Assembly (NCBI GenBank): GCA_913058345.1 | Contig: CAJXQR010000016.1 | Span: forward strand, 1 to 48,154 | Direction: 5' to 3' | Length of the DNA stretch: 48,154 nt | From: an uncultured Gammaproteobacteria bacterium | Lineage (GTDB): Bacteria > Pseudomonadota > Gammaproteobacteria > Pseudomonadales > Porticoccaceae | In this document: positions 29,276 to 45,698 of the stretch, in pieces | Layout: every line of letters begins with the position of its first letter | Position numbering within the stretch: the stretch's first letter is position 1 | Made by a program: the position numbers and the translations under genes | Notes under the pieces: model-generated | Databases searched by the model: none | Told to the model about the DNA's origin: nothing | Seen by the model: only the letters and a program-made list of their open reading frames with translations

Positions 29276-31302
29276 GGCCCCTCTGGCAAATCCCCAGGGA
29301 TTGCCTGTTTTGGTTGCTGGTCAGTGTGGTTATCAGTATTGGCCTACATCTTGAACACCTGCCACCCTGGATTGTACTGTCGGGAATCGTTGCGACCCTC
29401 TGGCAAATTCAGCTTTATCGAGAGCGTTGGCGTCAGCCGGGCCGTTTTATCAAATGGAGTTTGGTGGGCGCCTGTGCCGCTGGCTTAGTTCTACACTATG
29501 GCCGTATCTCGGGGCTTGAACCCATGGTAGCGCTGTTATTTGCGGGCTATGTCTTGAAATTGTTGGAGATCCACCACAAGCGCGATGCCTTGGTACTGCT
29601 TTATCTCTCCTATTTGATCATTATTTTACAAAGTTTGTTTTCAAGCAGTATCGTCTCCAGCCTACTGGTATTTGGTGCATTGTTACCCGTGACAGCGGCG
29701 TTGGTGGCTATGCACGCGGATGTTGAAAGCCGTCGTCCCGCATCGGCTCTGCGCACCGCTTTGACAATGACTCTGCAGGCGATACCGCTGATGTTGGTGA
29801 TGTTTGTTGTTATGCCGCGCATGGGTTCTCTATGGGCTGTACCGCAACACAATAGTGGTACTACCGGTGTGAGTGACAGTATGTCACCGGGCGATATGAC
29901 CCAGCTGGGGCGCAACGGTGATGTCGCTTTTCGCGTTGAGTTTGACGGGCCTATCCCAGAGCAACGTGAGTTGTATTGGCGGGGTCTGGTTTTTTCCGGT
30001 TTTGATGGACGGCGTTGGCAGCAAGAAGGGCCCTGGGGCTATAACGACGGTGAGTTTCTACAATGGTCTGACGAAGCGCCTGAGGCCTGGGATAAAGTCA
30101 TTGTGCGTCATGGTGAGCCCCTGGCCTATCAAATCACTTTAGAGACCACCAACAGTCCCTGGCTTTTTGCATTATCGACCCCCGTATCGCAATCGCCAAC
30201 AGTGGCACTAAGCCGTGATTTTCGTTTAGTAAACCGCGAGCCCGTTACCTCTAAACTGCAATATTCTGTGAATTCCTGGCTCGATAACCAACTTGAACCT
30301 GAGGTGTTACCGGGCTGGCGCGCCAGGTTAGAGCTTGCCATTCCTTCAGGTTTTAATCCGAAAACGATTGCGGTTGCTCAGCAATGGCGTCAAGAAACGC
30401 CAGAAACCGAGGCCTTAATTAATCGTTTATTAGCGCTTTACCATCGAGAGTTTATTTATACCCTACGACCTCCGGCACTGGGCAAGCATACGGTGGACGA
30501 ATTTTTGTGGGACACAAAAAAAGGGTTTTGTGAGTTTTACGCCAGTAGCTTTGTCTTTTTTATGCGCGCTGCTGGCGTGCCCGCCCGTGTGGTTGTCGGT
30601 TATCAGGGCGGTGAGCGTCACCCCACAGAGAATTATTTATTAGTGCACCAGTACGACGCCCACGCCTGGGCCGAGGTTTGGATAGAGGGACGTGGCTGGT
30701 TGCGTGTAGACCCCACAGCAGCTGTTGCTCCGGAGCGAATTGAAATGAGTTTCGCCGACTTGTTCAACGAACAGGATGACTTCCTAGCGGCGTCGCCTTT
30801 TTCCCTTGAACGCCTACGCCATATCGACTGGCTCAATAGATTGCGTTTAAAGCTGGACTCGCTCGACTATGCCTGGGCGAAATGGGTGCTGGGTTATGAC
30901 AATCGACAAAATGATTTTCTAATGAATCTATTGGGTGCTGTTAATCCGCAGCGCATTGCGCTATTTATCGTACTGGCGGGTGGCATTGCCTTATTACCCG
31001 TTTTTATCATGCTGTATTTAAGTCGCGAGAAAAACACGCGGGATCAGCTCGACCGTTTATTTCTGCAGTTTTGTTCACGCCTGGAGAAAATAGGTCTACC
31101 TCGAAAACCGGGAGAGGGGCCGCGTGATTACGCCCAGCGTATACGCTTACAAGCGCCGAGCCTTGCCGAGCAGGTCGACAGCTTAACTCGACGCTATGAA
31201 CGTGCGCGCTATGCAGAGCAACAGGAAGCAGAATTTAAACAGTTCAAAGCAGCGCTCAGCAAGTTTAAACCTGGCCGCAAAGACCGGCTGACAAGACCTT
31301 AA
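29272..31302 (+). CDS. tgpA: TgpA-type transmembrane transglutaminase-like protein (DUF3488)
   Basis: A 676-residue inner-membrane protein. The first 180 residues hold five to six membrane helices (DUF3488); a periplasmic domain follows, then the transglutaminase-like triad: Cys420 in KKGFCEFYASSFVFFMRAAGVPARVVVGYQGG, His in VHQYDAHAWAEVW, and Asp in GWLRVDPTAA. A last helix near 564-582 (IALFIVLAGGIALLPVFIML) precedes a cytoplasmic DUF4129-like tail. In P. aeruginosa the equivalent PA2873 (TgpA) is reported as essential; its substrate is unknown. It overlaps DUF58 by four bases and converges with the dioxygenase gene with overlapping stop codons. Confidence 0.93.
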   Translation: MRPLWQIPRDCLFWLLVSVVISIGLHLEHLPPWIVLSGIVATLWQIQLYRERWRQPGRFIKWSLVGACAAGLVLHYGRISGLEPMVALLFAGYVLKLLEIHHKRDALVLLYLSYLIIILQSLFSSSIVSSLLVFGALLPVTAALVAMHADVESRRPASALRTALTMTLQAIPLMLVMFVVMPRMGSLWAVPQHNSGTTGVSDSMSPGDMTQLGRNGDVAFRVEFDGPIPEQRELYWRGLVFSGFDGRRWQQEGPWGYNDGEFLQWSDEAPEAWDKVIVRHGEPLAYQITLETTNSPWLFALSTPVSQSPTVALSRDFRLVNREPVTSKLQYSVNSWLDNQLEPEVLPGWRARLELAIPSGFNPKTIAVAQQWRQETPETEALINRLLALYHREFIYTLRPPALGKHTVDEFLWDTKKGFCEFYASSFVFFMRAAGVPARVVVGYQGGERHPTENYLLVHQYDAHAWAEVWIEGRGWLRVDPTAAVAPERIEMSFADLFNEQDDFLAASPFSLERLRHIDWLNRLRLKLDSLDYAWAKWVLGYDNRQNDFLMNLLGAVNPQRIALFIVLAGGIALLPVFIMLYLSREKNTRDQLDRLFLQFCSRLEKIGLPRKPGEGPRDYAQRIRLQAPSLAEQVDSLTRRYERARYAEQQEAEFKQFKAALSKFKPGRKDRLTRP

Positions 31303-32138
31303 TGGTTCGATAGGGACTGGCCAAACTGTAGGGCCGATACTTTTGCACCCAACACGTGATCCTCATAGATAGCTCTGCCTGGGTCATCCGCAGCGGCACC
31401 TGCGACAAGCATAAGTGGTAATAAATGTTCCTCTCGGGGGTGCGCTTCACGGGCGGCAGGGGCCTTTTGCCAATGACAGAGCAAGTCCTCCCGTGCCTGA
31501 CCTTGAGTGGCGCAAGTATCTTGCAACCAGCGGTCGAATTGCTCAGCATCAAGCTTATTCTCCCCCGGTCTCATCAAGGTTTGCATGTTGTGGTAGCTTA
31601 TGCCGCTGCCCACTATTAATGTACCGGCCTGACGCAGCGGCGCCAAGGCTCGGCCCACTGCAATATGATGGGCAGGATCGAGATCATTGCGTAAGGAAAT
31701 CTGCACAATGGGGATGTCGGCATCGGGGTAGATCAATTTAAAAGGAATAAAAACACCGTGGTCGAAACCGTGTTCGGCATCTAAGCGGGCATTAATATTG
31801 GCATTATTCAGTAGACTCTCTATCTGCAGCGCTAATTGTGGCGAACCGGGTGCCGGGTACTTCAGCTCGTAGGTATGGGCTGGGAAACCCTTGTAATCGT
31901 AAATTAGCGGTGGCTTTGACCGGAAATTAATCAAAGTCTGTTCGCCCTCCCAATGGGCTGAACAAACTACAATTTGGCTGGGGCTGGCGCCAATGGAGTG
32001 AGCCAGTTGGAGCAACCAGCTTTTCATTTTCTCCCAGGTATCTGCGGGCCCCATCGTCCAGTCCATAAAAAAGCAGGGGCCTCCTCCATGGGGAATGTAA
32101 AGGGTGGGAAAAATGTCAGCTGTACTGTTTGTCTTCAT
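31299..32138 (-). CDS. DODA-type extradiol ring-cleavage dioxygenase family protein
   Basis: A 279-residue class III extradiol dioxygenase-like protein, close in layout to E. coli YgiD. The frame is open to 32237, but MKTNSTADIFPTLYIPHGGGPC at 32138 gives the family N-terminus and has AAGGG upstream. Metal and active-site candidates are the His in IPHGGGPC, VCSAHWEGEQ, LDAEHGFDHGVFIPF and VGSGISYHNM. AREAHPREEHLLPLMLVAGAA is the C-terminal signature. Members open catechol-like rings such as DOPA. The substrate is unknown, and it may serve the nearby catabolic genes or be a housekeeping enzyme. Confidence 0.85.
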   Translation of the reverse strand: MKTNSTADIFPTLYIPHGGGPCFFMDWTMGPADTWEKMKSWLLQLAHSIGASPSQIVVCSAHWEGEQTLINFRSKPPLIYDYKGFPAHTYELKYPAPGSPQLALQIESLLNNANINARLDAEHGFDHGVFIPFKLIYPDADIPIVQISLRNDLDPAHHIAVGRALAPLRQAGTLIVGSGISYHNMQTLMRPGENKLDAEQFDRWLQDTCATQGQAREDLLCHWQKAPAAREAHPREEHLLPLMLVAGAAADDPGRAIYEDHVLGAKVSALQFGQSLSNH

Positions 32139-32346
32139 CGTGTTGAAACCCTTTTTGCCTGAGAGCACGTTTTCTCTGTTCACTCGCGACTCTTTGTTTC
32201 TGAGGTTGATGATTAGTTCAACGTCAGGTTTTGCCATGTGCCCTGAGAGCTCCTTATTATGCAGGATGGCACTGGCTACAGGTTGTCGTTGGTTTGAGGC
32301 GTAATGGGTCGCGGATTCAATAGATAATTGATTCAGCCGCTGTATT

Positions 32347-32410: not shown

Positions 32411-33502
32411 TTAACCACTCACAGGGCTTAACAGTGGCTCACCAGGCATCTTGCGCAACTCTGGCAGTACATCTTTTGCAAACAAGCGCAGGCTCTTCTC
32501 GACGTCGTCATAGGGCATGCCGCCGTAGCTGAAGACACCGTTGTAGGCGCCGGCACCGGTGCGGGCGGTGAAGTCTTGAATGCGCTCGAGACATTGCTTG
32601 GGTGTACCGTAGACCTGAATACTCATAAAGAAACGGACCACGTCTTCGAGATTTTTGGTGACATGGTCGACCATGGCACCGTAGGTTTCATAACCTTTGG
32701 TGCTTTTCAGGTGATCGCTGGCCATTTCGTAGTGCTCGATCACAGAGCGGTAGTAGCCGCCGATATATTGGTAAGCCATTTCTTCGGCGCGGTCAGCACT
32801 TTCGTCGCAATACGTCCAGCCGCCGAGAATAGGGGCGGGGGCTTCTTCACCGTTGACCTCACGATAAATGGCGCGATAGTCGTTCATCTCTTTTTCGACG
32901 TGGTCCCAGGGCTTTTGCGGAATAATCAAAATACCGACACCCAGTTCGGCCATGATTTTCGACGATTCGGGAGAGACGGCAGCCGCATAAGTGCGGCCTT
33001 TAAAAGATTTGTAGGGGCGGGGCCGGATTTCGCGACGTGGTTGTTTAACATACTTGCCGTCAGCTTCGCAGAAGCCGGTCTCGAGACCGTCAAGAATCAT
33101 GGTGGCGGCTTCAGTGAAGGTCTCACGACTGGCGTTCATATCTTTGCCAAAACCCTCAAATTCAACACGACCCAAACCGCGCCCAACACCGAGAATCATG
33201 CGGCCATTGGACATGTTGTCGAGCATAGAGACTTCTTCAGCGACGCGCATGGGGTCGTGCCAGGGTAGGACGATAACCATGGAGCCCAGACCGAGGTCAG
33301 GGTTGCGGCCAGCCCAGTAAGAGAGATACTGGGTCACATCAGGGCACATGGTGTAGTCGGTAAAGTGGTGCTCGACACCCCATATAGATTGAAAGCCGAG
33401 TTCACTGGCTAAATCGCCCATGCGCAGGTCGTTAGTGTAGACCTCGTGGTCTGTCATATTAGGGTCTACGCCCTGAAAAATTAAAGATAATCCTACGTCC
33501 AT
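32411..33502 (-). CDS. Luciferase-like flavin monooxygenase
   Basis: A 363-residue LLM-family TIM-barrel protein that uses FMNH2 or F420. It begins MDVGLSLIFQGVDPNMTDHEVYTNDLRMGDLASELGFQSIWGVEHHF, the usual strand-helix start with the substrate-side EHH. Core motifs are GLGSMVIVLPWHDPMRVAEEVSMLDNMSNGRMILGVGRGLGRVEFEGFG and, later, GTPKQCLERIQDF. Members oxidise aldehydes, ketones, sulfonates or terpenoid ketones; the exact substrate cannot be told. It is the last gene of the minus-strand arm of the catabolic cluster and is followed by a strong terminator. AGAGGAAAC is its ribosome site. Confidence 0.88.
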   Translation of the reverse strand: MDVGLSLIFQGVDPNMTDHEVYTNDLRMGDLASELGFQSIWGVEHHFTDYTMCPDVTQYLSYWAGRNPDLGLGSMVIVLPWHDPMRVAEEVSMLDNMSNGRMILGVGRGLGRVEFEGFGKDMNASRETFTEAATMILDGLETGFCEADGKYVKQPRREIRPRPYKSFKGRTYAAAVSPESSKIMAELGVGILIIPQKPWDHVEKEMNDYRAIYREVNGEEAPAPILGGWTYCDESADRAEEMAYQYIGGYYRSVIEHYEMASDHLKSTKGYETYGAMVDHVTKNLEDVVRFFMSIQVYGTPKQCLERIQDFTARTGAGAYNGVFSYGGMPYDDVEKSLRLFAKDVLPELRKMPGEPLLSPVSG

Positions 33503-33600: not shown

Positions 33601-34365
33601 TTATTGGTTAAACATTCTTAGACTGCCATCAAGGCGGATGACTTCGCCGTTAAGCATTTTATTGCAGCATATATCGCGCACCAATGCACCGAATTCATCC
33701 GGTTGGCCGAGGCGTTTCGGAAAGGGGACTTCCTTGATGATTTCGTTCCACAGTTCTTCGGGTACGGTTTTTGTCAAGGGTGTTTCAAAGGCGCCGGGAG
33801 CGATGGTCATCACGCGGATGCCGTATTTGGCCAAATCACGTGCCATTGGCAAGGTCATGCCGATAACACCGGCTTTTGAGGCGCCATAGGCGACCTGTCC
33901 CGCTGGAGATTCATAACCGGCAATGGAAGCCACGTTGATGATAACGCCGCGCTCACCATCATCGTCCAGTGGCTCGGCGTCAATCATTTGCCTGGCGGCA
34001 AGACGGGCACAACTAAAGGAGCCGGTGAGGTTGACGTTGAGCATGTGCTGGAAATCGTCGAGGCTGTGAATACCTTTGCGACTGGCCGTTTTAGCAATGA
34101 CATCGACGCCAGCAGCGTTGAGCAGTACGCGCACGGGGCCGAGCTCTGTTTGTATTTTTTCAAAGGCGGCGACGACACTCGTTTCATTAGCAACATCACA
34201 AGCAATAGCTGTTGCCCCGAGGCTTTTTGCCGTTGCCTGGGCCAGGCTTTCATTGCGGTCGAGAATAACGACCTGAGCGCCGGCTTCGCTAAGCACGCGG
34301 GCAGCGCCTGCGCCCAGGCCCGATGCGCCACCGGTAATGGCGACGATTTGATGATTAAGATCCAT
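33601..34365 (-). CDS. SDR dehydrogenase, 3-hydroxyacyl-CoA dehydrogenase type-2 (HSD10)-like
   Basis: A 254-residue short-chain dehydrogenase. The cofactor motif is VAITGGASGLGAGAARVL with a following acidic residue in VILDRNE, suggesting NAD. LNAAGVDVIAKT is the NNAG-like motif, IINVASIAGYESPAGQVAYGASKAGVIGMTLPMARDLA has the Ser-Tyr-Lys triad, and the C-terminal RVMTIAPGAFETPLTKTVPEELW plus GEVIRLDGSLRM resemble the HSD10/3-hydroxy-2-methylacyl-CoA dehydrogenase group. That would fit oxidation of a 3-hydroxyacyl-CoA in beta-oxidation of a branched substrate. GGAGC precedes the ATG. It lies between the monooxygenase and the tandem SDR pair. Confidence 0.85.
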   Translation of the reverse strand: MDLNHQIVAITGGASGLGAGAARVLSEAGAQVVILDRNESLAQATAKSLGATAIACDVANETSVVAAFEKIQTELGPVRVLLNAAGVDVIAKTASRKGIHSLDDFQHMLNVNLTGSFSCARLAARQMIDAEPLDDDGERGVIINVASIAGYESPAGQVAYGASKAGVIGMTLPMARDLAKYGIRVMTIAPGAFETPLTKTVPEELWNEIIKEVPFPKRLGQPDEFGALVRDICCNKMLNGEVIRLDGSLRMFNQ

Positions 34366-34489: not shown

Positions 34490-35257
34490 TTAGATGGCGA
34501 GTGACAAACCACCGTCCATAACAATAATGGAGCCAGTAATGAAGCTAGATGCCTCACTTGCTAGCAATACGGACATTCCCTCGAAGTCCTCCGGCTGGCC
34601 GTAGGCGCCGGTTGCTGTTTTTGATACGGCAAAGTCAACGAGAGGAACTTTGTTTTCGCCTTCACAAGGCATCATTTCAGTGTTAACCAGGCCGGGTAGT
34701 AAAGCGTTAACCGTAATACCGTGTTTGCCCCAGCCCTGGGCCAGACTCTGTGTCATGTGATCCATACCACCTTTGGCCGCTGCGTAGTGAACCAGCTTGC
34801 CAAAGCCAAGTTTAGTGATAATAGAACCAACATTGACGATTCTACCGCCGCCCGCTTCAACCATATGGGGGAAGACGGCTCGGCAGGTGAGAAAGCAGGA
34901 AGTCAGGTTGATGGCAATAAAGTTGTTCCACTCATCGAGAGTCATGCTCTCAGCGGGGATACCCCAGCTAATGGCCGCGTTATTAAAGAGGATGTCGATG
35001 CGCCCGTAGTGCTCGGCAACGGCAGCAACCATATTGTTAACATCATCTTCTTTCGATACATCACACTGCACACCAAAAGCTGTTGCGCCGTTGCCTTCAA
35101 GAACTGACACGGCGTTATTAATTTTGTCCTGGTTGCGACCAACTACGGCAACCTTGGCGCCAGCTTTGGCCAGGCCTCCGGCAATACCCAGCCCGAGTCC
35201 ACCGTTGCCGCCGGTGATAATGGCGACTTTGCCCGTTAAATCAAATTTGCTATTCAT
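34490..35257 (-). CDS. SDR-family oxidoreductase, tandem copy 1
   Basis: A 255-residue classical SDR. VAIITGGNGGLGLGIAGGLAKAG is the TGxxxGxG dinucleotide site, with VGRNQ after it; LFNNAAISWG is the NNAG-type motif; and NVGSIITKLGFGKLVHYAAAKGGMDHM carries the catalytic Ser, Tyr and Lys. VNALLPGLVNTEMMPCEGENK is the substrate loop and FITGSIIVMDGG the C-terminal motif. Roughly two thirds of residues match the neighbour at 35356, including the unusual HYAAAKGGMDHMTQSLA stretch, so the pair arose by duplication. GGAG lies 8 bases before the ATG. Substrate unknown. Confidence 0.88.
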   Translation of the reverse strand: MNSKFDLTGKVAIITGGNGGLGLGIAGGLAKAGAKVAVVGRNQDKINNAVSVLEGNGATAFGVQCDVSKEDDVNNMVAAVAEHYGRIDILFNNAAISWGIPAESMTLDEWNNFIAINLTSCFLTCRAVFPHMVEAGGGRIVNVGSIITKLGFGKLVHYAAAKGGMDHMTQSLAQGWGKHGITVNALLPGLVNTEMMPCEGENKVPLVDFAVSKTATGAYGQPEDFEGMSVLLASEASSFITGSIIVMDGGLSLAI

Positions 35258-35355: not shown

Positions 35356-36123
35356 TTAAATACCCAGGGTCATTCCGCCATCGGCAACGATGATAGAGCC
35401 AGTGATAAATTTAGAGGCTTCACTTGAGAGTACCAGTGATAAACCTTCGAAATCATCGGGCATGCCGTAGCGACCCACCGGAGTTTTCTTGGTGATGTAA
35501 TCGACCACTGGGCCAATTTTGTTTTCGCCGAAGCAGGGCATCATCTCGGTGTGTACCAAGCCTGGAAGAATGGCGTTGACTTGAATGTTGTCCTTGCCCC
35601 AGGCTAGTGCCAGGCTTTGGGTCATATGGTCCATACCGCCTTTTGCCGCTGCGTAGTGAACCAGTTTGCCCATGGCTTTTTGAGTGATAGCAGAGCCAAC
35701 GTTAATAATTTTACCGCCACCCACTTTAACCATTTCAGGGTGCACTGCTTTAGAACAGAGGAAGCAAGATGTCAGGTCGATAGCAATAAATTGATCCCAG
35801 TCTTCTATGGTCAGCTTCTCCGGTGCAACGCCCCAGCTAATAGCAGCATTGTTAAAAAGAATATCAACACGACCGAGTTGCTCAACAGTTTCGGCGACCA
35901 TACGGTTAACGTCATCTTCCTTGGAAACGTCAGCCTTAACGCCTATAGCAGTGGCTCCGACGTCTTTCATCTCGGCGACTGCTTTATCAATTTTTTCCTG
36001 GTTACGGCCAACAAGGGCAACTGCGCAACCTTCGGATGCCAGACCCTTGGCAATGCCGAGGCCGAGGCCGCCGTTACCGCCGGTAATAATGGCTACTTTT
36101 CCTGTTAAATCAAAACACTTCAC
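35356..36123 (-). CDS. SDR-family oxidoreductase, tandem copy 2
   Basis: The first gene of the minus-strand arm: 255 residues, starting with GTG after a strong GGAGG. It has the same architecture as copy 1: TGGNGGLGLGIAKGL for NAD(P), NNAAISWGV, and the triad region NVGSAITQKAMGKLVHYAAAKGG. Differences from copy 1 cluster around residues 190-225 (FGENKIGPVVDYITKKTPVGRYG), next to the substrate pocket, which suggests the two act on different or successive alcohol groups. It starts beside the long intergenic region shared with the divergent DUF7064 gene. Confidence 0.88.
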   Translation of the reverse strand: MKCFDLTGKVAIITGGNGGLGLGIAKGLASEGCAVALVGRNQEKIDKAVAEMKDVGATAIGVKADVSKEDDVNRMVAETVEQLGRVDILFNNAAISWGVAPEKLTIEDWDQFIAIDLTSCFLCSKAVHPEMVKVGGGKIINVGSAITQKAMGKLVHYAAAKGGMDHMTQSLALAWGKDNIQVNAILPGLVHTEMMPCFGENKIGPVVDYITKKTPVGRYGMPDDFEGLSLVLSSEASKFITGSIIVADGGMTLGI

Positions 36124-36984: not shown

Positions 36985-37989
36985 ATGAGTAGGTACCGTC
37001 TCGACACGGTGGACGAATACGGCCATCAACCCACTGCAGATAGTAATTTCAACGAAAGTGTCTATCTTAACGGCTGGGACCCGCAGCAGAAGATGGGCGT
37101 GTGGATGCGCCTCGGTAACCGCGTTAATGAGGGCCATGCGGAGCTTTCTGTGTGTATCTATTTACCGGATGGCCGCGTTGCCTGCCAGTTCTTGCGGCCT
37201 GCGATAGACACTAACGAGCGCCACAGCGCTGGCGGTCTTGACTATGAAGTGCAGGAGCCTTTCAAAGCGGTGAGCATGAGGTACTGCGGTGAGGCGATGA
37301 TGCTCGACGATCCTCAAGTATTGCGCGAGCCGCGTAAAATGTTTAAAACCGCACCGCGAGCGTCTTGCGAGATCACACTATCCCATATTGGGCTATCGCC
37401 CATGAATGGTGGTGAACCCACCAACCATGAAACAGATACTATGTACGGTCGGGATTTTTCCCTTGGCCATTTTAATCAACACTCTCGCATCACCGGCAAA
37501 ATCACGCTGGGCGATGAAAGCTGGGACTTAAAAGGCTTCGGCTGGCGCGACCATTCATGGGGCCCCCGTTATTGGACCAATATCAACTTCTATCGCTTGT
37601 TTGTCGCGAATTTTGGTGAAGATCGCGGCATTATGATGCTCAAGCGCACTGATTGTGAAATGAAGGTACACCGTCGGGGCGTGCTGATGTTCGACGGTCA
37701 ATACGAAGAGATTATCGATATGGATGTGATGACCGAGTGGGATGAAAATAAAGACCCCAAAGCTGTTCGTCTCGGTGTGCGTACGGCCAATCGAGCTGTG
37801 GTGTTGAATGGCAAGATTATTACCCTGGCGCCGCTGCGCAACCATCGACAAATTGATGGGCAGACTGTAGAGAGCCGTATTGCCGAAGGTTTCACTGAAT
37901 GGTCTTGGGATGATGGTCGCCCAGGTATCGGTATTACGGAATATATCGAGCGTCTCGAAGATGGAGAGCCAGTCGGCTTTCCACTTTGA
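36985..37989 (+). CDS. DUF7064-type protein with CrtC/AttH-like fold signature
   Basis: A 334-residue protein. An in-frame upstream extension exists, but the ATG at 36985 has GGGGAAAG just before it and begins MSRYRLDTVDEYGHQP. The strongest landmark is GFGWRDHSWGPRYWTNINFYRL at about residue 187, the G-x-R-D-H-S-W-G-x-R motif that I associate with DUF7064 and the hydroxyneurosporene-synthase/AttH lipocalin-like superfamily. Beta-rich repeats surround it (SLGHFNQHSRITGKITLGDESWDLKG). No enzyme activity is established for this group as far as I know; members sit in lipid, steroid and terpenoid clusters. It is the first gene of the plus-strand arm. Confidence 0.75.
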   Translation: MSRYRLDTVDEYGHQPTADSNFNESVYLNGWDPQQKMGVWMRLGNRVNEGHAELSVCIYLPDGRVACQFLRPAIDTNERHSAGGLDYEVQEPFKAVSMRYCGEAMMLDDPQVLREPRKMFKTAPRASCEITLSHIGLSPMNGGEPTNHETDTMYGRDFSLGHFNQHSRITGKITLGDESWDLKGFGWRDHSWGPRYWTNINFYRLFVANFGEDRGIMMLKRTDCEMKVHRRGVLMFDGQYEEIIDMDVMTEWDENKDPKAVRLGVRTANRAVVLNGKIITLAPLRNHRQIDGQTVESRIAEGFTEWSWDDGRPGIGITEYIERLEDGEPVGFPL

Positions 37990-38023
37990 AGACAGCGGCT
38001 AATACTGCCTACAGAAGGTAAAA

Positions 38024-39052
38024 TTGTCGATAATGGCTGAGGTTTCTGAGCAACAAGCAGAGCTTGCTGACAGCGTCGCTAAACTCCAACTGGCCTTAAA
38101 ACGGCGCTACGGCGAGGCTGCCCGTGTTGAGAATGTGTCTATCGCCACTCTCGGTGCATCCAATAGAACCTTGTTGTTTGACTTGGTGGAGCCAGTGGGC
38201 CAACGTCGTCTGGTGTTACGCCAGGAAACTGTGAAATCTGAAGTCTCTCCTTTTATCTCTCCCCACGATCAGTTTGAAATTTTAAACGTCGTCTATCGCC
38301 ACTGCGTGCCGGTGCCCGAGCCGATATTTGAACTCGAGCTCGAAGATGACCTCGATGTCGGTTATGTTATGGCCTGTGTGGAAGGAGAAACCCTGCCGAA
38401 AACCTTGCTTAATGCCCCTGAGTTTGCAGTGGCGCGTCAGCGTTTCGCGGCACAGACTGGCGAAATCTTTGCCAAACTGCACGCCATTGATCCCCGCGAG
38501 GTCGCCTTTTTGGAAAAGGTTGTCGATAGCGTTGACCCCCTGGCGGCACAAATCAGCCGTTACGATGCCTACTGTGAATATCATCCGGGGCTTGATGTCG
38601 GCATTCGCTGGTTGGAAAATAATCGCCCTAAAGAAAAGCCTCGCGTGTTTGTCCATGGGGATTACCGCAATGGCAATGTTATTCTCAGCCCCGACGGTAT
38701 CGAGGCCGTGCTCGACTGGGAATGTGCCCATATCGGCAGTGCCATGGAAGACTTTGGCTGGGTCTGTTTGCGTGCCTGGCGCTTTGGTAATATCAATCAG
38801 CCCGTGGGTGGTTTCGGTCCGCGTGATGAATTTTACCAGGCCTATACCAGCAATGGCGGTCAGGCGATTGATGAAGATGAGATTCGCTGGTGGGAAATTT
38901 TTGGCTCACTGCGCTGGGCCGTTTTGAACATGATGCAGGCCGACGGTCATATTCGCGGGGTCAGGCGGTCATTGCCCTTTGCCTGTTGTGGGCGCAATAC
39001 CAGCATGATCGAATACGATATGTTGATGACCATTGATGGTCAATTTTCTTAA
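38024..39052 (+). CDS. APH-family kinase, LvaA/ACAD10-11-like
   Basis: A 342-residue aminoglycoside-phosphotransferase-fold kinase. The ATP-side N-lobe has ATLGASNRTLLFDL and RRLVLRQET (Lys replaced by Arg-Gln in the usual place). The catalytic loop is RVFVHGDYRNGNVILSPDG (HGDxxxxN) and the metal motif is EAVLDWECAHIGSAMEDFGW. This is the subgroup found fused or adjacent to acyl-CoA dehydrogenases, which phosphorylates hydroxyacyl-CoA esters, not antibiotics. AAGG lies 5 bases before the TTG at 38024 and 14 before the ATG at 38033, so TTG is the better start. A DUF6285 gene follows. Confidence 0.85.
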   Translation: MSIMAEVSEQQAELADSVAKLQLALKRRYGEAARVENVSIATLGASNRTLLFDLVEPVGQRRLVLRQETVKSEVSPFISPHDQFEILNVVYRHCVPVPEPIFELELEDDLDVGYVMACVEGETLPKTLLNAPEFAVARQRFAAQTGEIFAKLHAIDPREVAFLEKVVDSVDPLAAQISRYDAYCEYHPGLDVGIRWLENNRPKEKPRVFVHGDYRNGNVILSPDGIEAVLDWECAHIGSAMEDFGWVCLRAWRFGNINQPVGGFGPRDEFYQAYTSNGGQAIDEDEIRWWEIFGSLRWAVLNMMQADGHIRGVRRSLPFACCGRNTSMIEYDMLMTIDGQFS

Positions 39053-39247
39053 GCGAGAAAGCGCAAGGTTCCTGACAGTTTGAGATAGGTTTTGTCCTGA
39101 CCAACTGTTTAGCAGGGGAGTTCGTTTGGCACGGTTATTAAGGGCATTCTTTTACTCGCCGTAGCACCGAAGTAAGCCCGCTTCTGTACATGAATTTTCT
39201 ACACATGCTTTCAATCAATAAGAATAAACGTTGCTGGAGTAAGCGCT

Positions 39248-39616
39248 TTGAGTCAGGATAAGCCCGATATAAAAGAAATTCTTGTCACCGTAAAACAGCT
39301 GTTAGAAAGCATCGCCAATAGATCCAAAGGGGGAGAGCGCTACGATGCTCTGTGCGGTGCTTTTCTGATTGGTGTGGTTGATAGAGAGCTCGAATGTGAT
39401 CGACACCAAGACGAACGTCAGCGTCGCGAGCTGCAAGTTTTACTTGGGCGAAAGGGCTCTATCAGCGATCTCTATCTGCAGTTCTGCCAGCAAGTGCGTC
39501 ACGGTGAATTAGACGATCAATGGCCCGCTGCTTTCGATTTTGCCTTGCAACAGGTGATTGATAAAGTCAGCGTCACTAAGCCCGATTACCTTACCGCCGT
39601 GCATCGCTCAGACTAG
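39248..39616 (+). CDS. DUF6285 small protein, candidate LvaB-like kinase partner
   Basis: A 122-residue helical protein starting with TTG after GGAG. It begins SQDKPDIKEILVTVKQLLESIANR and contains RYDALCGAFLIGVVDRELE and RRELQVLLGR. I place it in DUF6285 from its length, pattern and position after an APH-family kinase. In the levulinate pathway a small partner (LvaB) is needed by the kinase LvaA to phosphorylate 4-hydroxyacyl-CoA; the same role here is inference. A 195-bp gap separates it from the kinase, without an obvious terminator. Confidence 0.7.
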   Translation: MSQDKPDIKEILVTVKQLLESIANRSKGGERYDALCGAFLIGVVDRELECDRHQDERQRRELQVLLGRKGSISDLYLQFCQQVRHGELDDQWPAAFDFALQQVIDKVSVTKPDYLTAVHRSD

Positions 39617-39711: not shown

Positions 39712-40476
39712 ATGTCAGGAAGAGTAGAAGGACAAGTAGCCATCGTCACCGGTGCCAGTGGTGGAATTGGCCGTGCGGCGAGTGAGATTTTTGCCCGCGA
39801 AGGTGCCAGTGTTGTGGTCGCTGATATGAATATCGTTGGCGGTGAAGAGACGGCCCACCTCATCGAACAGGCGGGGGGCAAAGCAATATTCGTTAAAACC
39901 GATGTCTCCAGTGCCGCCGATACTGAGGCAATGGTCAGCGCCGCCGTAGCGGAGTTTGGCAAGCTCAACTGTGCCTTTAACAATGCCGGTGTCGAGGGTG
40001 AGCAATCCCTGGCCGCCGATGCCACTGAAGAAAATTTCATGCTTAACTACAAGGTCAATATGCTGGGTGTATGGCTGTGCATGAAATACCAAATCCAACA
40101 AATGATGGCCCAGGGCACGGGCGGGGCGATCGTTAATACGGCTTCCGATGCGGGTTTGATCGGTGTCAAAGGTCTCAGCCATTATTCAGCCGCTAAGCAC
40201 GCGGTTATTGGCTTGACCAAATCGACAGCACTGGACTACGCCACCAAGAACATTCGTGTCAATGCGGTGTGCCCTGGCCCCATTCGCACGCAAATGCTTG
40301 AGCGGGTATTCGAAGAAAACCCCAAGTTTGCCGAAGCAATGATTTCAGCCCAGCCGGTTAAGCGCTTAGGTGAGCCCCATGAGATCGGCGACGCCGCTGT
40401 TTATTTGTGTTCGGATGCTGCCAGCTACATCACTGGTCACGCACTGCCAGTCGATGGTGGTTATATGGCGACCTAG
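39712..40476 (+). CDS. SDR-family oxidoreductase (plus-strand arm)
   Basis: A 254-residue classical SDR. VAIVTGASGGIGRAASEIFAREGASVVVADMN is the NAD-type site with Asp after the second strand; AFNNAGVEGEQ is the NNAG motif; and NTASDAGLIGVKGLSHYSAAKHAVIGLTKSTALDYA has the Ser-Tyr-Lys triad. VNAVCPGPIRTQML and ITGHALPVDGGYMAT close the fold. It resembles cyclopentanol/2,5-dichloro-diol type dehydrogenases more than FabG, but substrate is not assignable. It is clearly different from the minus-strand SDR pair. GGAG precedes the ATG. It lies about 95 bp after the DUF6285 gene. Confidence 0.88.
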   Translation: MSGRVEGQVAIVTGASGGIGRAASEIFAREGASVVVADMNIVGGEETAHLIEQAGGKAIFVKTDVSSAADTEAMVSAAVAEFGKLNCAFNNAGVEGEQSLAADATEENFMLNYKVNMLGVWLCMKYQIQQMMAQGTGGAIVNTASDAGLIGVKGLSHYSAAKHAVIGLTKSTALDYATKNIRVNAVCPGPIRTQMLERVFEENPKFAEAMISAQPVKRLGEPHEIGDAAVYLCSDAASYITGHALPVDGGYMAT

Positions 40477-40584: not shown

Positions 40585-41691
40585 ATGAAAATCAAGGCCG
40601 CAGTATTGCGCGGGGTAGACCAGCCTTTCGAGATTGAAGAACTGGAGCTCGCGCCACCAAAAGAAAATGAAGTGTTGGTTAAAACCACTGCCAGTGGTAT
40701 TTGCCACAGTGACTACTCTGTCGCTCATGGCATTTTGCGCTGTCCTTTTCCCATCGTCCTCGGTCACGAAGGCGCGGGGGTCGTTGAGGCCGTAGGGCCT
40801 GGCGTTACGGAGCTGAAGCCCGGTGATAAAGTGATCGCTTCTCTAACGCCCAGTTGTGGCAATTGCAGCATGTGTAAAGAAGGTAAAGAGTTTATGTGTT
40901 CGGGCATGGGTAAATTACTCACCGATTGCACTCAGCTCGATGGCACTACGCGCCACAAAACCGCAAGTGGCGAAGATGTTTACACGCTGTGTGGTGTTGG
41001 CTCCTTCGGCGAATATATGGTGATGCCAGTGGGTTCAGCCATTAAAGTGCCAGATGATACCCCCCTCGATACTACTTGCCTGATTGGCTGCGGTGTCACC
41101 ACCGGCACTGGTGCTGCGCTTAATACCGCTAATGTACAACCCGGCGAGGCGACAGCGGTTATTGGCTGTGGTGGTGTTGGCTTGTCTATTATTCAGGGCT
41201 GCCGCATTGGTGGTTCAACGATTATTATTGCTATTGACCCCATGGAAGAAAAACGCGAGCTGGCGCTGTCTCTGGGTGCTACTCACGCAATTAATCCCTT
41301 TGAGGAAGACGCCGCTGCGAAAGTGAAAGAACTGACCGGTGGTTTAGGCGTGCACTACGCCTTTGAAGCATTAGGCCGTGTTGAAACCATGGCGCAAACC
41401 TGGGACATGATTCGACCCACCGGTACATGCGTGATTGTTGGTGTCGCCTCGCTGGACCAATCGGTAAAAATTCCCTCAGCCGGTTTGTTGGCCGAGTATG
41501 AAATTCAGGGTTCTTGCTATGGCTCATCAACCCCGAAGAAAGATATCCCCCGTTTCGTTGAATTGTATAAGAGCGGTGATCTAAAGCTGGACGAAATGAT
41601 TACCCAGCGTATAGGCCTGGAAGATATCGGTCGTGCCTTTGACGAAATGGGCCGCGGTGAAGGTGCCCGTTCTGTGATCATGTACGGTTAA
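40585..41691 (+). CDS. Zinc-dependent alcohol dehydrogenase, tandem copy 1
   Basis: A 368-residue MDR dehydrogenase. Catalytic zinc ligands are the Cys in ASGICHSDYSVAHG, the His-Glu in LGHEGAGVVEAVG and the Cys in CLIGCGVTTGTGAAL. The four-cysteine structural zinc loop is CGNCSMCKEGKEFMC. The Rossmann site is AVIGCGGVGLSIIQGCRIGG followed by IAIDPMEEKR, where Asp suggests NAD. This is the class-III/NDMA-dependent-like ADH group that oxidises primary alcohols to aldehydes. GGAG precedes the ATG by 7 bases. Its neighbour at 41751 is a close paralogue. Confidence 0.92.
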   Translation: MKIKAAVLRGVDQPFEIEELELAPPKENEVLVKTTASGICHSDYSVAHGILRCPFPIVLGHEGAGVVEAVGPGVTELKPGDKVIASLTPSCGNCSMCKEGKEFMCSGMGKLLTDCTQLDGTTRHKTASGEDVYTLCGVGSFGEYMVMPVGSAIKVPDDTPLDTTCLIGCGVTTGTGAALNTANVQPGEATAVIGCGGVGLSIIQGCRIGGSTIIIAIDPMEEKRELALSLGATHAINPFEEDAAAKVKELTGGLGVHYAFEALGRVETMAQTWDMIRPTGTCVIVGVASLDQSVKIPSAGLLAEYEIQGSCYGSSTPKKDIPRFVELYKSGDLKLDEMITQRIGLEDIGRAFDEMGRGEGARSVIMYG

Positions 41692-41750: not shown

Positions 41751-42854
41751 ATGAAAACAAAAGCCGCAGTGCTTTATGAAGTGGGTTCGCCTCTGGTTGT
41801 TGAAGAGCTAGAGCTTGAAGGCCCAAAAGAAAATGAAATTTTAGTGAACTATACCGCCAGTGGTATTTGCCATAGTGACTACTCCTTTGCTCACGGCGTA
41901 CTACCAACGCAACTACCTGCCGTACTGGGTCACGAAGGGGCAGGGGTAGTTGAAGAAGTGGGTGCCAATGTTACCAACGTGAAAGTGGGTGACCACGTGG
42001 TGGCCGCACTCACACCGGCTTGTGGCAAGTGCACCTTCTGTCTCGAGCGCAAGCCTTTTCTCTGTGCAGAAATGTCCAATGTTATTTGGGAAGGCAGCTT
42101 GCTGGACGGCACGAAGCGCTTTAAAAACAGCAAGGGCGAAGATATTGGTCAACTGGTTTGTGTTGGTACTTTTTCTGAACGCTCTGTTATCCCCGCGGGC
42201 ATGGCGATAAAAGTCGATGACAAAGCACCCCTTGATACTATTTGCTTAATTGGTTGTGGCGTTACCACCGGTGTTGGCGCCGCGTTAAATACCGTCGATA
42301 TTAAAGAAGGTGACAGCTGTGCCGTTATCGGCTGTGGTGGTGTGGGTTTGTCCATTATTCAGGGCTGTCGTATCGCCGGAGCCGGACAGATTATTGCTAT
42401 TGACCCCGTTGCTGAAAAGCGTGAGCTAGCTCTGCAAATGGGTGCGACAGATGTCATTGACCCCACTGATATTAATGTCGTCAAAGAAGTGCGTAAACTC
42501 AGCGGTGGCGGTGTGCACTTTGCCTTTGAAGCCTTGGGTTTGAAAGTCACTATCGAGCAAGCCTGGGCTATGCCGCGCGTTACCGGTACCGCCGTCATCG
42601 TCGGTGTGCCAAAAATGGATACTGAGTTAGAACTGCCTGTACTGGGTTTCTTTGGCGAGAAGCACTTTAAGGGTTCTGCCTACGGTAGCTCTGTTCCGTC
42701 AGAGGATATACCCAAGTTTGTCGACCTGTATATGACCGGCGAGTTAAAGCTCGACGACATGATTACCAAACGTATAAAACTTGAAGAGGTGAATACCGCT
42801 TTTGAGGAAATGGGTCGTGGTGAAGGTGCTCGTTCAGTCATTATGCATGGCTAA
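41751..42854 (+). CDS. Zinc-dependent alcohol dehydrogenase, tandem copy 2
   Basis: A 367-residue paralogue of the preceding gene, about 60 bp downstream with its own GGGAG site. Zinc ligands are conserved (GICHSDYSFAHG, GHEGAG, CLIGCGVTTGVGAAL), as is the structural loop CGKCTFCLERKPFLC and the NAD site VIGCGGVGLSIIQGCRIAG. The C-terminal ELKLDDMITKRIKLEEVNTAFEEMGRGEGARSVIM is nearly the same in both copies. Divergence lies mainly in residues 103-150 and around 268-300 (TKRFKNSKGEDIGQ, MDTELELPVLGFFGEKH), near the substrate pocket, so different chain or ring alcohols are plausible. Confidence 0.92.
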   Translation: MKTKAAVLYEVGSPLVVEELELEGPKENEILVNYTASGICHSDYSFAHGVLPTQLPAVLGHEGAGVVEEVGANVTNVKVGDHVVAALTPACGKCTFCLERKPFLCAEMSNVIWEGSLLDGTKRFKNSKGEDIGQLVCVGTFSERSVIPAGMAIKVDDKAPLDTICLIGCGVTTGVGAALNTVDIKEGDSCAVIGCGGVGLSIIQGCRIAGAGQIIAIDPVAEKRELALQMGATDVIDPTDINVVKEVRKLSGGGVHFAFEALGLKVTIEQAWAMPRVTGTAVIVGVPKMDTELELPVLGFFGEKHFKGSAYGSSVPSEDIPKFVDLYMTGELKLDDMITKRIKLEEVNTAFEEMGRGEGARSVIMHG

Positions 42855-42938: not shown

Positions 42939-43793
42939 ATGAAAGAATTAACAAGCTCCTCCTTTGTCGATGACTTTGTCTTTCTCGAAGGCCCGCGCTG
43001 GAACGATGGTAAGCTCTGGGTATCCGATATGTTTGGCAATACCGTTTATACCATTACGCCAGACGGTGAACGCACGGCTATGGCCACGTTACCCAATCGT
43101 CCTTCCGGTATTAACTTTATGCCCGATGGCTCTGTGGTTGTGGTCTCTATGGCCGACCGCAAGTTAATGACACTGGCTGACGATGGCTCTTTAAGTGAGT
43201 ACGCGGACCTGTCTGGCAATCTTGAATACGACATTAACGACTGCGTGTGTGCGCCCAACGGCAATATTTATGTGGGTACGTTCGGTTACGACGTATTTGC
43301 CCATCAAGAACCAAAGCCGGCGACTTTAACCCTGGTTAAGACTGACGGCACGATTCAAACGGTTGCTGAGGATATGCACTTCCCCAATGGCGCGTGTATT
43401 ACCCCCGATGGCAAAACCTTGATTGTGGCGGAAACCTTTGTGGGTCGTATTACGGCATTTACCATTGAAGCCGATGGTACATTGTCTGGACGTCGAGTCT
43501 TTGCCGACCTGGGTGAGTACACACCCGATGGTATTTGTCTCGATGCCGAGGGAGCTGTTTGGGTTGCTGCCTTCGAAAATGGCGAATTTATTCGCGTGCT
43601 GGACGGCGGAGAAATCACCCATAAAATTGATACCGGTGATCGCCGTGCCGTTGCTTGTAATCTGGGCGGAGCTGATGGAAAGACTCTTTACTGCCTGATT
43701 TATGACGGTAGTTTAGATGATATTCCCGAAGGTAAGCGCAACGCTATCATCGAAACAGCCAGGGTTGATGTTGCCGGAGCGGGTTCCCCCTAG
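42939..43793 (+). CDS. SMP-30/gluconolactonase-family protein
   Basis: A 284-residue six-bladed beta-propeller. Metal-site candidates are the Glu in VFLEGPRWNDGKLWVSDMFGNTVY, the Asn in DINDCVCAPNGNIYVGTFGYDVF, and the later HFPNGACITPDGKTLIVAETF and YTPDGICLDAEGAVWVAAF. These enzymes open lactones using Ca2+ or Zn2+. It is the last gene of the plus arm, so it may hydrolyse a lactone produced by the dehydrogenases or by the monooxygenase. AAGGAAAT precedes the ATG. A perfect 20-bp terminator follows 16 bp after the stop. Confidence 0.9.
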   Translation: MKELTSSSFVDDFVFLEGPRWNDGKLWVSDMFGNTVYTITPDGERTAMATLPNRPSGINFMPDGSVVVVSMADRKLMTLADDGSLSEYADLSGNLEYDINDCVCAPNGNIYVGTFGYDVFAHQEPKPATLTLVKTDGTIQTVAEDMHFPNGACITPDGKTLIVAETFVGRITAFTIEADGTLSGRRVFADLGEYTPDGICLDAEGAVWVAAFENGEFIRVLDGGEITHKIDTGDRRAVACNLGGADGKTLYCLIYDGSLDDIPEGKRNAIIETARVDVAGAGSP

Positions 43794-43854: not shown

Positions 43855-43938
43855 GTTATTTGATGATAGTGGTGTTGCCGTGTGAATTATTTTTGAGTGG
43901 AGAGAACTGCTGCGGTGAGAGGTTCGAGCCGATGCGTC

Positions 43939-43967
43939 TTGGCTATTTGCGGGCCAGCGCCTATACT
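43939..43967 (+). promoter_or_regulatory. Sigma-70 promoter of umuDC
   Basis: TTGGCT at 43939-43944 and TATACT at 43962-43967 are separated by 17 bp. The -10 element overlaps the LexA box, so LexA binding would block RNA polymerase. The transcript would begin near 43974. Confidence 0.75.
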
Positions 43968-43981
43968 GTATTTTTATACAG
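43966..43981. promoter_or_regulatory. LexA (SOS) box
   Basis: CTGTATTTTTATACAG has the CTG-N10-CAG form of gammaproteobacterial LexA sites, with an A/T-rich spacer. It lies 11 bp before the umuD start and over the -10 element, which indicates induction by DNA damage. Confidence 0.93.
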
Positions 43982-43992
43982 TGTTGGTGCTA

Positions 43993-44442
43993 ATGGTGAA
44001 GCTGATTTCTCTTACCCCTGCGTGCGCGCGCACGACAGTATTATTTCCACTCTATCTCAGTCGTGTGGCGGCGGGTTTTCCCAGCCCGGCTGATGACTAT
44101 CTCGATGGGGGGCTAGATCTTAACGAGCATTTGGTCGACCATCCGGCGGCAACTTATTTTGCTCGCGCCGAAGGTGACTCAATGATCGAGCTGGGGATAT
44201 CCACGGGCGACTTGCTGATTATTGATCGTGCTGTGCCAGCTGTCGACGGCGATGTCGTCGTGGTTGCCGTCGATGGTGAGCTCACCATCAAACTGCTTGA
44301 TTTGGCCCACTCCCGTTTATTACCCGCTAATAAATTGTACCGGCCCATTGAAATATCGCCAGAATCTCAAGTTGATGTTGAGGGTGTGGTGATTCATGCG
44401 GTCCATCATTTAAAGGGAGCTGGCAAAGGACTGAACCTGTGA
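43993..44442 (+). CDS. umuD: UmuD-like self-cleaving polymerase V subunit
   Basis: A 149-residue S24-family protein. The frame is open further upstream, but the LexA box and promoter lie inside that part, so the ATG at 43993 is the start. FPLYLSRVAAGFPSPADDYLDGGLDLNEHL aligns with E. coli UmuD; the cleavage site is Ala27-Gly28 where E. coli has Cys-Gly. Ser63 in EGDSMIELGI and Lys100 in GELTIKLL form the catalytic dyad. After RecA-stimulated self-cleavage it would join UmuC to form the error-prone translesion polymerase. Its stop overlaps the umuC start (GTGA). Confidence 0.95.
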   Translation: MVKLISLTPACARTTVLFPLYLSRVAAGFPSPADDYLDGGLDLNEHLVDHPAATYFARAEGDSMIELGISTGDLLIIDRAVPAVDGDVVVVAVDGELTIKLLDLAHSRLLPANKLYRPIEISPESQVDVEGVVIHAVHHLKGAGKGLNL

Positions 44443-45698
44443 TTGGTCTGTGCGACATGCGTAGCTTTTACTGCGCCTGCGAAAAGGTGTTTCGTCCTGA
44501 TATTCGCCACAGAGGCGTGGTAGTCACTTCAAATAATGATGGCGTGGTGGTGGCGCTGGATGACAGAGCCAAAGCGGCGGGTATCAAAAAATTTGAGCCC
44601 TACTTTAAGCAGCGCCAGTTGATTGAACGGACCGGCGTGCTGGCCTTTTCCAGCAACTATGAGCTTTATGGTGAGATTAGTGCGCGCATTATGACAACCC
44701 TGGCCGAATTGGCGCCCAATGGTATCGAGATTTATTCCATCGATGAGTGTTTTGTGGATTTTAGCGCCGTGCCCCGGTGCGAATTAAAAGCTTTTGCCGC
44801 TATGTTGCGCGATACGATCTGGCAGCAGCAGGGTATAAGAATGGGCGTGTCAATTGCGCCGACAAAAACCCTGGCCAAGCTTGGACAGTGTGCCACCAAA
44901 CTCTTTCCGCAAATTGATGGCATCTGCGTACTTGAGCATGAAGCCCAATGGCAATGGCTCGCGGCTCGGGTGGCTGTCAGTGAGGTCTGGGGGATTGGCC
45001 GCAAACTGACGCGAAAGCTCGAGACCAGGGGGATCAATACGGTGGGCGATTTATGGGGGATGGCTACAGTCGACGCCCGAACCTTACAGGGAATCACTCT
45101 GGTGCGCACAGTGCGCGAGCTACGGGGTGAGCCTTGTATTGATATCGATGGCCAGCCCCCGCCGAAGCAGAGCATTATTTCCAGCCGTTCCTTTGGTCAA
45201 AAGCAAACGAGTTTAAAACCTCTGCAGGAGGCCGTGAGCCACTATGCCGTGAGAGCGGGGGCTAAGCTCAGAGCGCAGGCATCGTTGTGCTTTCGCCTCT
45301 CGGCCTGGCTACAAACCAGTGTGCACGATACGAGACCTTGTGCTGATGAACTCTCGGTGAGCTTGCCCGGTGGCACGGCCGATAGCAGAGAGCTATCAAG
45401 GGCTGCCGTAGCGCTGGTGGCTAAGCTTTATCGACCGGGTTACAAGTACGCCAAGGCGGGGGTAATGCTGCAGGATATTCGTCCTGAACAATTTACTCAG
45501 CAAGACTTACTGGCGCCTCGGTCGGAGAATGCCGCTCATTTAATGGCGGTGGTAGACAGGGTGAATCAGCGTTTCGGCTCGGGAGCTATCAAACTGGCTC
45601 GCCAGGGCGGTGAAGGTCGTTTTACCATGAAGCGGGCCATGAGGTCTCCCAGCTATCTGACCCGCTGGCACGAAATCCCGCGTATCAGGTTTGGTTGA
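44439..45698 (+). CDS. umuC: UmuC-like Y-family DNA polymerase V catalytic subunit
   Basis: A 419-residue Y-family polymerase for translesion synthesis after SOS induction. Palm motifs are GLCDMRSFYCACEKVFRPD (first metal Asp) and NGIEIYSIDECFVDFS (SIDE with the catalytic acidic pair). VVVTSNNDGVVVALDDRAKAAGIK, AFSSNYELYGEIS and MGVSIAPTKTLAKLGQCATKLFP are family motifs, and VWGIGRKLTRKLETRGINTVGDL is the helix-hairpin-helix. The C-terminal little-finger region starts around RSFGQKQTSLKPLQEAV. The start is GTG overlapping the umuD stop. Length equals typical UmuC (about 420). Confidence 0.97.
   Translation: MIGLCDMRSFYCACEKVFRPDIRHRGVVVTSNNDGVVVALDDRAKAAGIKKFEPYFKQRQLIERTGVLAFSSNYELYGEISARIMTTLAELAPNGIEIYSIDECFVDFSAVPRCELKAFAAMLRDTIWQQQGIRMGVSIAPTKTLAKLGQCATKLFPQIDGICVLEHEAQWQWLAARVAVSEVWGIGRKLTRKLETRGINTVGDLWGMATVDARTLQGITLVRTVRELRGEPCIDIDGQPPPKQSIISSRSFGQKQTSLKPLQEAVSHYAVRAGAKLRAQASLCFRLSAWLQTSVHDTRPCADELSVSLPGGTADSRELSRAAVALVAKLYRPGYKYAKAGVMLQDIRPEQFTQQDLLAPRSENAAHLMAVVDRVNQRFGSGAIKLARQGGEGRFTMKRAMRSPSYLTRWHEIPRIRFG

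Follow-up and report, generated by a model that had tools for sequence, protein, structure and literature searches.

A DUF7064 gene beside an LvaAB-type kinase pair in a Porticoccaceae genome: a probable ATP-dependent dehydration module

The locus presented here lies in a stretch of 48,154 nucleotides (hereafter the window) from an uncultured gammaproteobacterium of the Porticoccaceae (GCA_913058345.1, contig CAJXQR010000016.1), and joins an LvaA-like kinase gene with genes for a DUF6285 and a DUF7065/DUF7064 protein. Its closest described relatives are systems built around an APH-fold kinase. The levulinate catabolism of Pseudomonas employs the kinase LvaA and LvaB, a 12-kDa protein pulled down with LvaA, both being needed to obtain 4-phosphovaleryl-CoA according to the summary in PMC6692424 (citing Rand 2017). 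The phosphate is then eliminated by the flavin-dependent acyl-CoA dehydrogenase (ACAD) LvaC. ACAD10 and ACAD11, in which the kinase is fused to a flavin-dependent ACAD, also proceed by phosphorylation and subsequent phosphate elimination (PMC11342911, PMC12440821), and, like LvaC, depend for the elimination on a catalytic Asp and on an HCMR region (PMC12440821). In Sterolibacterium denitrificans, the APH-fold kinase 25-HSK and the double-lipocalin lyase 25-PSL perform a two-step ATP-dependent dehydration: 25-HSK, which behaved as a monomer, phosphorylates a tertiary C25 alcohol, and a lyase, unknown at that time, eliminates the phosphate to leave an alkene (PMC8449060). Mycobacteria possess an APH-fold kinase gene co-operonic with the gene of an Rv3169_fam protein, the Rv3168-Rv3169 operon (PMC5340868; PDB 3ats).

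The three genes of the window are the following.

36985..37989, + strand, DUF7065/DUF7064 protein, 334 aa, predicted phosphate-eliminating lyase (Pfam PF23212, 9.2e-18; PF23213, 1.8e-16)
38024..39052, + strand, APH-fold kinase, LvaA-like, 342 aa from TTG (Pfam APH PF01636, E 1.8e-30)
39248..39616, + strand, DUF6285 protein of the LvaB family, 122 aa, predicted kinase subunit (PF19802, 52.9 bits, cut-off 28.1)

We consider it likely that these genes, at 36985-39616, form an ATP-dependent dehydration module, in which an LvaAB-type kinase is combined with a phosphate lyase of the 25-PSL type replacing the flavin-dependent LvaC. The APH-fold kinase and its LvaB-type DUF6285 subunit would phosphorylate the hydroxyl group of a hydroxyacyl-CoA or of a free hydroxylated compound, and the DUF7065/7064 double-lipocalin protein would eliminate the phosphate with formation of a C=C bond, a flavin-free counterpart of the LvaC step in levulinate catabolism. 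The locus presents a defined gene set, a constant linkage, intact catalytic motifs and a remote sequence and fold similarity to 25-PSL; we infer that the two reactions occur in this order and that DUF6285 binds this kinase.

This arrangement resembles LvaAB(C) in that the gene for the small DUF6285 subunit directly follows the kinase gene, and differs from it by the absence of an adjacent CoA ligase and of an LvaC-type ACAD beside the pair, where a DUF7065/7064 gene is found instead. The kinase branch likens it to ACAD10 and ACAD11, but the window kinase stands alone, and neither DUF6285 nor DUF7064 is known in those proteins. With 25-HSK and 25-PSL it has in common an APH-fold kinase and a double-lipocalin protein. 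However, the window kinase belongs to the LvaA-like branch, is linked to a DUF6285 gene and adjoins a predicted lyase gene, whereas PMC8449060 reported, in 2021, no lyase candidate near the 25-HSK gene. The window DUF7064 protein matches the NCBIfam model Rv3169_fam weakly, at 40.8 bits, far below the cut-off of 150, and the relevant text of PMC5340868 mentions no DUF6285 gene in the mycobacterial operon.

The upstream DUF7065/DUF7064 gene belongs to the kinase–DUF6285 system. The source genome has two DUF6285 genes, both in the order DUF7064–kinase–DUF6285. Within the family to which the window belongs, DUF6285 occurs in 18 and DUF7064 in 19 of 112 genomes, and all 18 DUF6285 genomes, which are related and do not amount to 18 independent events, carry DUF7064. 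In this family, 25 of the 29 DUF6285 matches have a same-strand DUF7064 gene 1.1-1.6 kb further upstream; this count took in 44 DUF7064 matches, the others not being, by their coordinates, within 2.5 kb of a DUF6285 match. Of the four remaining cases, two are partial or lie at a contig end or close to one (G282, G281), one stands beside an ACAD (G339, L085) and one has a second kinase and no DUF7064 (G283, L090). Across a phylum sample of 398 genomes, DUF7064 exceeded its cut-off in two and DUF6285 in 39, and both DUF7064 genomes possess DUF6285.

A wider scan, started from DUF7064 proteins, covered the best 80 of at least 570 relatives (at least 591 stretches), kept as 78 loci; it favours proteins resembling its query, A1, which was built mainly from kinase-linked loci, and several loci come from the same genomes as L071-L084 or are near-duplicates (e.g. 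L178, L187). A kinase gene lies directly downstream of DUF7064 in 52 of the 78 loci, with a gap of less than 150 bp in all of these except one. DUF6285 follows the kinase in 49 of the 52, and the other three loci end 739-1078 bases after DUF7064, near a contig edge. The loci hail from Gamma- and Alphaproteobacteria, with a few on contigs labelled Actinomycetota or assigned to other groups; the module is also carried by metagenome contigs with the doubtful-looking titles Klebsiella pneumoniae and Bifidobacterium breve (L142, L173, L203). DUF7064–kinase fusion proteins were considered and rejected, the long open reading frames (ORFs) of L151, L185, L202 and others being open frames upstream of a single domain. 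The gene order of the window was found again in relatives and in other classes, beyond what chance would produce. The first-pass annotation had described the surroundings of the pair as unrelated; the upstream DUF7064 gene is, on the contrary, a constant partner of this kinase clade.

The small protein connects the locus to levulinate catabolism. At L115, a locus from a genome of the same taxonomic order, the genes for a kinase, a DUF6285 protein, an HCMR-bearing ACAD, a short-chain dehydrogenase/reductase (SDR) and an AMP-ligase follow one another in the order lvaABCDE, with a divergent sigma-54 activator. The L115 DUF6285 protein shows 73.5% identity to proteins from plasmids that carry the annotation 'lvaB: 4-hydroxypentanoyl-CoA kinase subunit LvaB', its weaker matches being annotated DUF6285 domain-containing protein. 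Judged from this sequence relationship, DUF6285 is the LvaB family, an equivalence that the first-pass annotation had also put forward. The window and L115 DUF6285 proteins are 27% identical over 84 positions, and their kinases 32%; a PDB search with the single DUF6285 sequence gave chance-level matches only (best E 0.19). At 13 loci other than the window, kinase and DUF6285 are fused in one ORF; a fourteenth, L065, passes the length filter but overlaps a separate kinase ORF and was not counted. The model of one natural fusion (L203) reached a predicted local distance difference test score (pLDDT) of 92.4 and a predicted template modelling score of 0.91, given with no interdomain error figure, and together with the 13 fusions it suggests that DUF6285 may bind the kinase.

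The window kinase, for which an alternative in-frame ATG lies at 38033, retains both catalytic motifs (HxDxxxxN and DxE). ORFs and Pfam matches bear out the pair and the motifs quoted in the first-pass annotation, with the catalytic Asp codon of HGDYRNGN at 38660-38662 and the Asp codon of DWECAHIG at 38714-38716. In three window-type clusters (L072, L076, L084; L135 and L138 are copies of genomes among them), the kinases read HGEYR(N/I)GN, Glu replacing the catalytic Asp in a cluster otherwise kept.

In a quick tree of 95 of the 138 kinases, with support from the Shimodaira–Hasegawa-like approximate likelihood ratio test (SH-aLRT) only, the DUF6285-linked kinases form one clade of 79 rows (support 99) which includes the window kinase. 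Kinases beside an ACAD of the LvaC signature (HCMR and Asp), beside a Glu-type ACAD (NRIRQAASSLGA and TEG, no HCMR) or beside DUF7064 are largely separate in this clade. The window kinase falls in a subclade of 35 rows (SH-aLRT 100), 34 of them adjoining DUF7064, and DUF7064 appears again in a group made of L052, L086, L202 and L203 and once in the Glu-type group (L120). The pair is LvaAB-like, as anticipated in the first-pass annotation, and the window kinase stands apart from antibiotic kinases. The kinase-clade profile matched 25-HSK, ACAD11, Rv3168 and 3dxp at 58.7-82.7 bits and macrolide kinases at 35.1 bits at most. Since this clade scores almost the same against ACAD11 (62.3 bits) and 25-HSK (PDB 9fsg, 62.1 bits, its sequence lying outside the tree) and higher against 3dxp (82.7 bits), both a CoA and a non-CoA substrate are possible.

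The Pfam family of the kinase is APH and it weakly matches the APH(3') model. That it would be an antibiotic-type or other unrelated small-molecule kinase in a coincidental neighbourhood is nevertheless very improbable, given a score of 30.3 bits against a cut-off of 205 (MPH_3, 20.5 against 500; MphE, 19.3 against 640), the better matches to 3dxp and ACAD11 and the constant linkage to DUF7064 and DUF6285. A 25-HSK-like character is less favoured for the window kinase: of the two kinases beside DUF7064 genes at L051, the one searched fits Rv3168, 9o56 and 25-HSK better (57.9-72.6 bits) than the window kinase does. L051 lies in the same genome (G000:C1:406000-425000); it combines these two kinases with a pair of DUF7064-like genes but has no DUF6285, and may be a second kinase-lyase system. 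Its DUF7064 relative gave nothing in the PDB at 0.1 and lacks the RDHSWG motif.

As the first-pass annotation had stated, the window encodes no ACAD: none of its ORFs of at least 70 aa matches our ACAD profile. ACADs, luciferase-like monooxygenases (LLM) and other neighbours were assigned with profiles built from this locus set, not from Pfam. In a first set of 71 DUF6285 loci, DUF7064 was present in 22, an ACAD lay within 4 kb in 34, both occurred in one and neither in 16. For the latter (L063, L065, L083, which is cut by the contig end, L090, L094, L097, L099, L105, L108-L111, L113, L118, L124 and L125) a third kind of partner is possible. The HCMR motif was present in 30 of the 87 ACAD ORFs of at least 300 aa in the fetched regions. 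Among DUF6285 loci without DUF7064, 20 have an HCMR ACAD, which in nine is only the second ACAD besides a Glu-type one. The 49 DUF7064–kinase–DUF6285 modules contain, within the fetched flanks, no ACAD of the LvaC signature; 16 have an isovaleryl-CoA-dehydrogenase (IVD)-like ACAD with LDLER, alone or plus another, three have another type only and 30 have none. A simple mutual exclusion of ACAD and DUF7064, which the first set had suggested, was rejected in view of these IVD-type ACADs and of LvaC-type ACADs beside DUF7064 at eight loci devoid of DUF6285; the exclusion holds only for LvaC-signature ACADs and the 49 modules within their fetched flanks.

Glu-type ACADs stand beside a kinase–DUF6285 pair at L061, L062, L085, L091-L107, L122 and L126-L129, and several Burkholderia-like loci of this kind also hold an HCMR ACAD on the opposite strand. 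Alphaproteobacterial clusters (L211, L159, L161-L171, L181) hold a kinase, an AMP-ligase, an LvaC-type ACAD and DUF7064. Several of them encode a protein of about 710 aa with an SMP-30 domain, and L211 also carries annotated sugar ABC transporter genes.

The phosphate-removing partner, which the first-pass annotation had taken to be simply missing, is probably encoded by the adjoining DUF7064 gene, the best candidate for that role. Orthologue length and a likely ribosome site place the start of this gene at ATG 36985 (334 aa) rather than TTG 36826. A search of the PDB with the DUF7064 profile A2 returned 25-PSL first (9fzn, E 2.2e-9), the next match being AttH at 0.018; among solved families, 25-PSL alone matched the profile significantly. 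The two families have the motif GxRDxSWGxR in common, which reads GWRDHSWGPR in the window with Asp189 encoded at 37549-37551, and its Asp is present in every one of the 78 A2 rows. In 9g4c, a 25-PSL chain solved with phosphate and product, the aligned stretch has D changed to N at this position, from which we infer a catalytic role for the Asp. The AlphaFold2 model of the DUF7064 protein (pLDDT 95.6) found 25-PSL in its five best Foldseek rows (1.1e-13). Taken together, these data indicate that the DUF7064 protein probably removes phosphate, leaving a double bond.

Several observations weigh against the proposed dehydration module. The sequence similarity between DUF7064 and 25-PSL is remote, at 15-19% identity, and the double-lipocalin fold of DUF7064 (AttH/CrtC-type) is found just as well in kievitone hydratase, AttH and Diels-Alderases. 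DUF7064 could then be a hydratase, isomerase, cyclase or hydrophobic carrier devoid of phosphate chemistry and acting before or after the kinase, a view to which the 26 of 78 kept DUF7064 loci without a directly downstream kinase also lend weight. We regard it as unlikely, since 25-PSL stands alone among solved families in its significant match, the motif Asp is common to both, and DUF7064 has joined DUF6285 kinases at three places of the kinase tree. A simple replacement of LvaC is further at odds with eight alphaproteobacterial loci (L159, L161, L162, L164, L169, L170, L171 and L181) where DUF7064 and an HCMR ACAD occur together; a kinase lies at a distance of about 2 kb, and DUF6285 has no match there.

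These eight loci also count in favour of an ordinary LvaAB kinase whose phosphorylated product is handled by an LvaC-type ACAD encoded elsewhere, DUF7064 performing another step. The source genome has at least three HCMR ACADs outside the window, at C7:114346 (62% identical to the LvaC-type ACAD of L115), C2:518671 and C1:253891, which could act on the kinase product; three is a minimum, as 38 loci were scanned (30 of 42 ACAD matches and the eight best of a second search). However, two of these three are accompanied by an APH kinase of their own, with no DUF6285, each of the two DUF6285 kinases in the genome adjoins DUF7064, and the fetched flanks of the 49 modules are devoid of LvaC-type ACADs. 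We accordingly grant this explanation a low probability. An LvaC-type ACAD acting in trans and a non-lyase role of DUF7064 are the main rivals to the kinase-lyase module.

The genes surrounding the module, listed below, are those announced by the first-pass annotation, with DUF7065/7064 upstream of the pair, an SDR, two zinc alcohol dehydrogenases and an SMP-30-type protein downstream, and three divergent SDRs.

39712..40476, + strand, SDR dehydrogenase, conserved neighbour, in the same position in window-type clusters (adh_short_C2, 7.6e-67)
40585..41691, + strand, zinc alcohol dehydrogenase 1, conserved neighbour (ADH_N and ADH_zinc_N)
41751..42854, + strand, zinc alcohol dehydrogenase 2, conserved neighbour (ADH_N and ADH_zinc_N)
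42939..43793, + strand, SMP-30/gluconolactonase-like protein, possible lactonase (SGL, 1.7e-51)
35356..36123, - strand, SDR dehydrogenase, divergent neighbour
34490..35257, - strand, SDR dehydrogenase, divergent neighbour
33601..34365, - strand, SDR dehydrogenase, divergent neighbour
32411..33502, - strand, LLM, recurrent near DUF7064 modules (Bac_luciferase, 3.4e-54)

A LigB-type ring-opening dioxygenase subunit (31299-32237) adjoins the LLM gene, and a umuDC-type translesion polymerase operon (43897-45698) lies immediately 3' of the cluster.

LLM genes, often divergent from DUF7064 and close to it, are present at 47 of 103 DUF7064 loci against none of 49 DUF6285 loci without DUF7064, in sets of loci that overlap and have different flanks. 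At L079, L081 and L140 (the last by profile only) a flavin monooxygenase (FMO)-like protein takes the place of the LLM, and the NCBIfam model that fits the L081 and L079 proteins best is PtlE, a Baeyer-Villiger enzyme, at scores far short of the cut-off. Together with SMP-30, these neighbours allow the guess that a ketone is converted to a lactone and then to a hydroxy acid, which the module dehydrates; the first-pass annotation had suggested a lactone- or diol-derived acid as substrate, and a lactone-derived hydroxy acid may reasonably be guessed from the neighbourhood. In many other DUF7064 modules, a protein of about 257 aa and an IVD-type ACAD come next, genes that the window cluster does not have beside it. 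The former was a crotonase in the one case scanned with Pfam (L141), and L191 matched crotonase models; crotonase-like proteins and IVD-type ACADs favour CoA esters as substrates in those modules.

A broader proposal, which we advance tentatively and hold to be doubtful in its full extent, is that DUF7065/7064 is a widespread family of flavin-free phosphate-eliminating lyases that have on repeated occasions taken the place of LvaC next to LvaAB-type kinases. Within the window, the DUF7065/7064 protein would end a lactone route: dehydrogenases would yield a ketone for a flavin monooxygenase to turn into a lactone (the enzyme is luciferase-like here and Baeyer-Villiger-like in L079, L081 and L140), SMP-30 would open the lactone, and the kinase and lyase would remove an otherwise unreactive, perhaps tertiary, hydroxyl as phosphate.

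No mention of DUF6285, DUF7064 or DUF7065 was found in the papers searched in an open-licence PMC library, and further searches brought up no such kinase-lyase combination. If the kinase-lyase module holds true, a gene family of hitherto unassigned function would gain a reaction, and the LvaB subunit would work with two different eliminating enzymes. Kinases that now go by the name of aminoglycoside phosphotransferases would also receive an annotation open to testing. The dehydration of unreactive alcohols by a kinase and a lyase would be a conserved, clustered module in Gammaproteobacteria, Alphaproteobacteria and contigs labelled Actinomycetota, joining the catabolism of levulinate and 4-hydroxyacids with the anaerobic degradation of sterol side chains, which have so far been studied apart.
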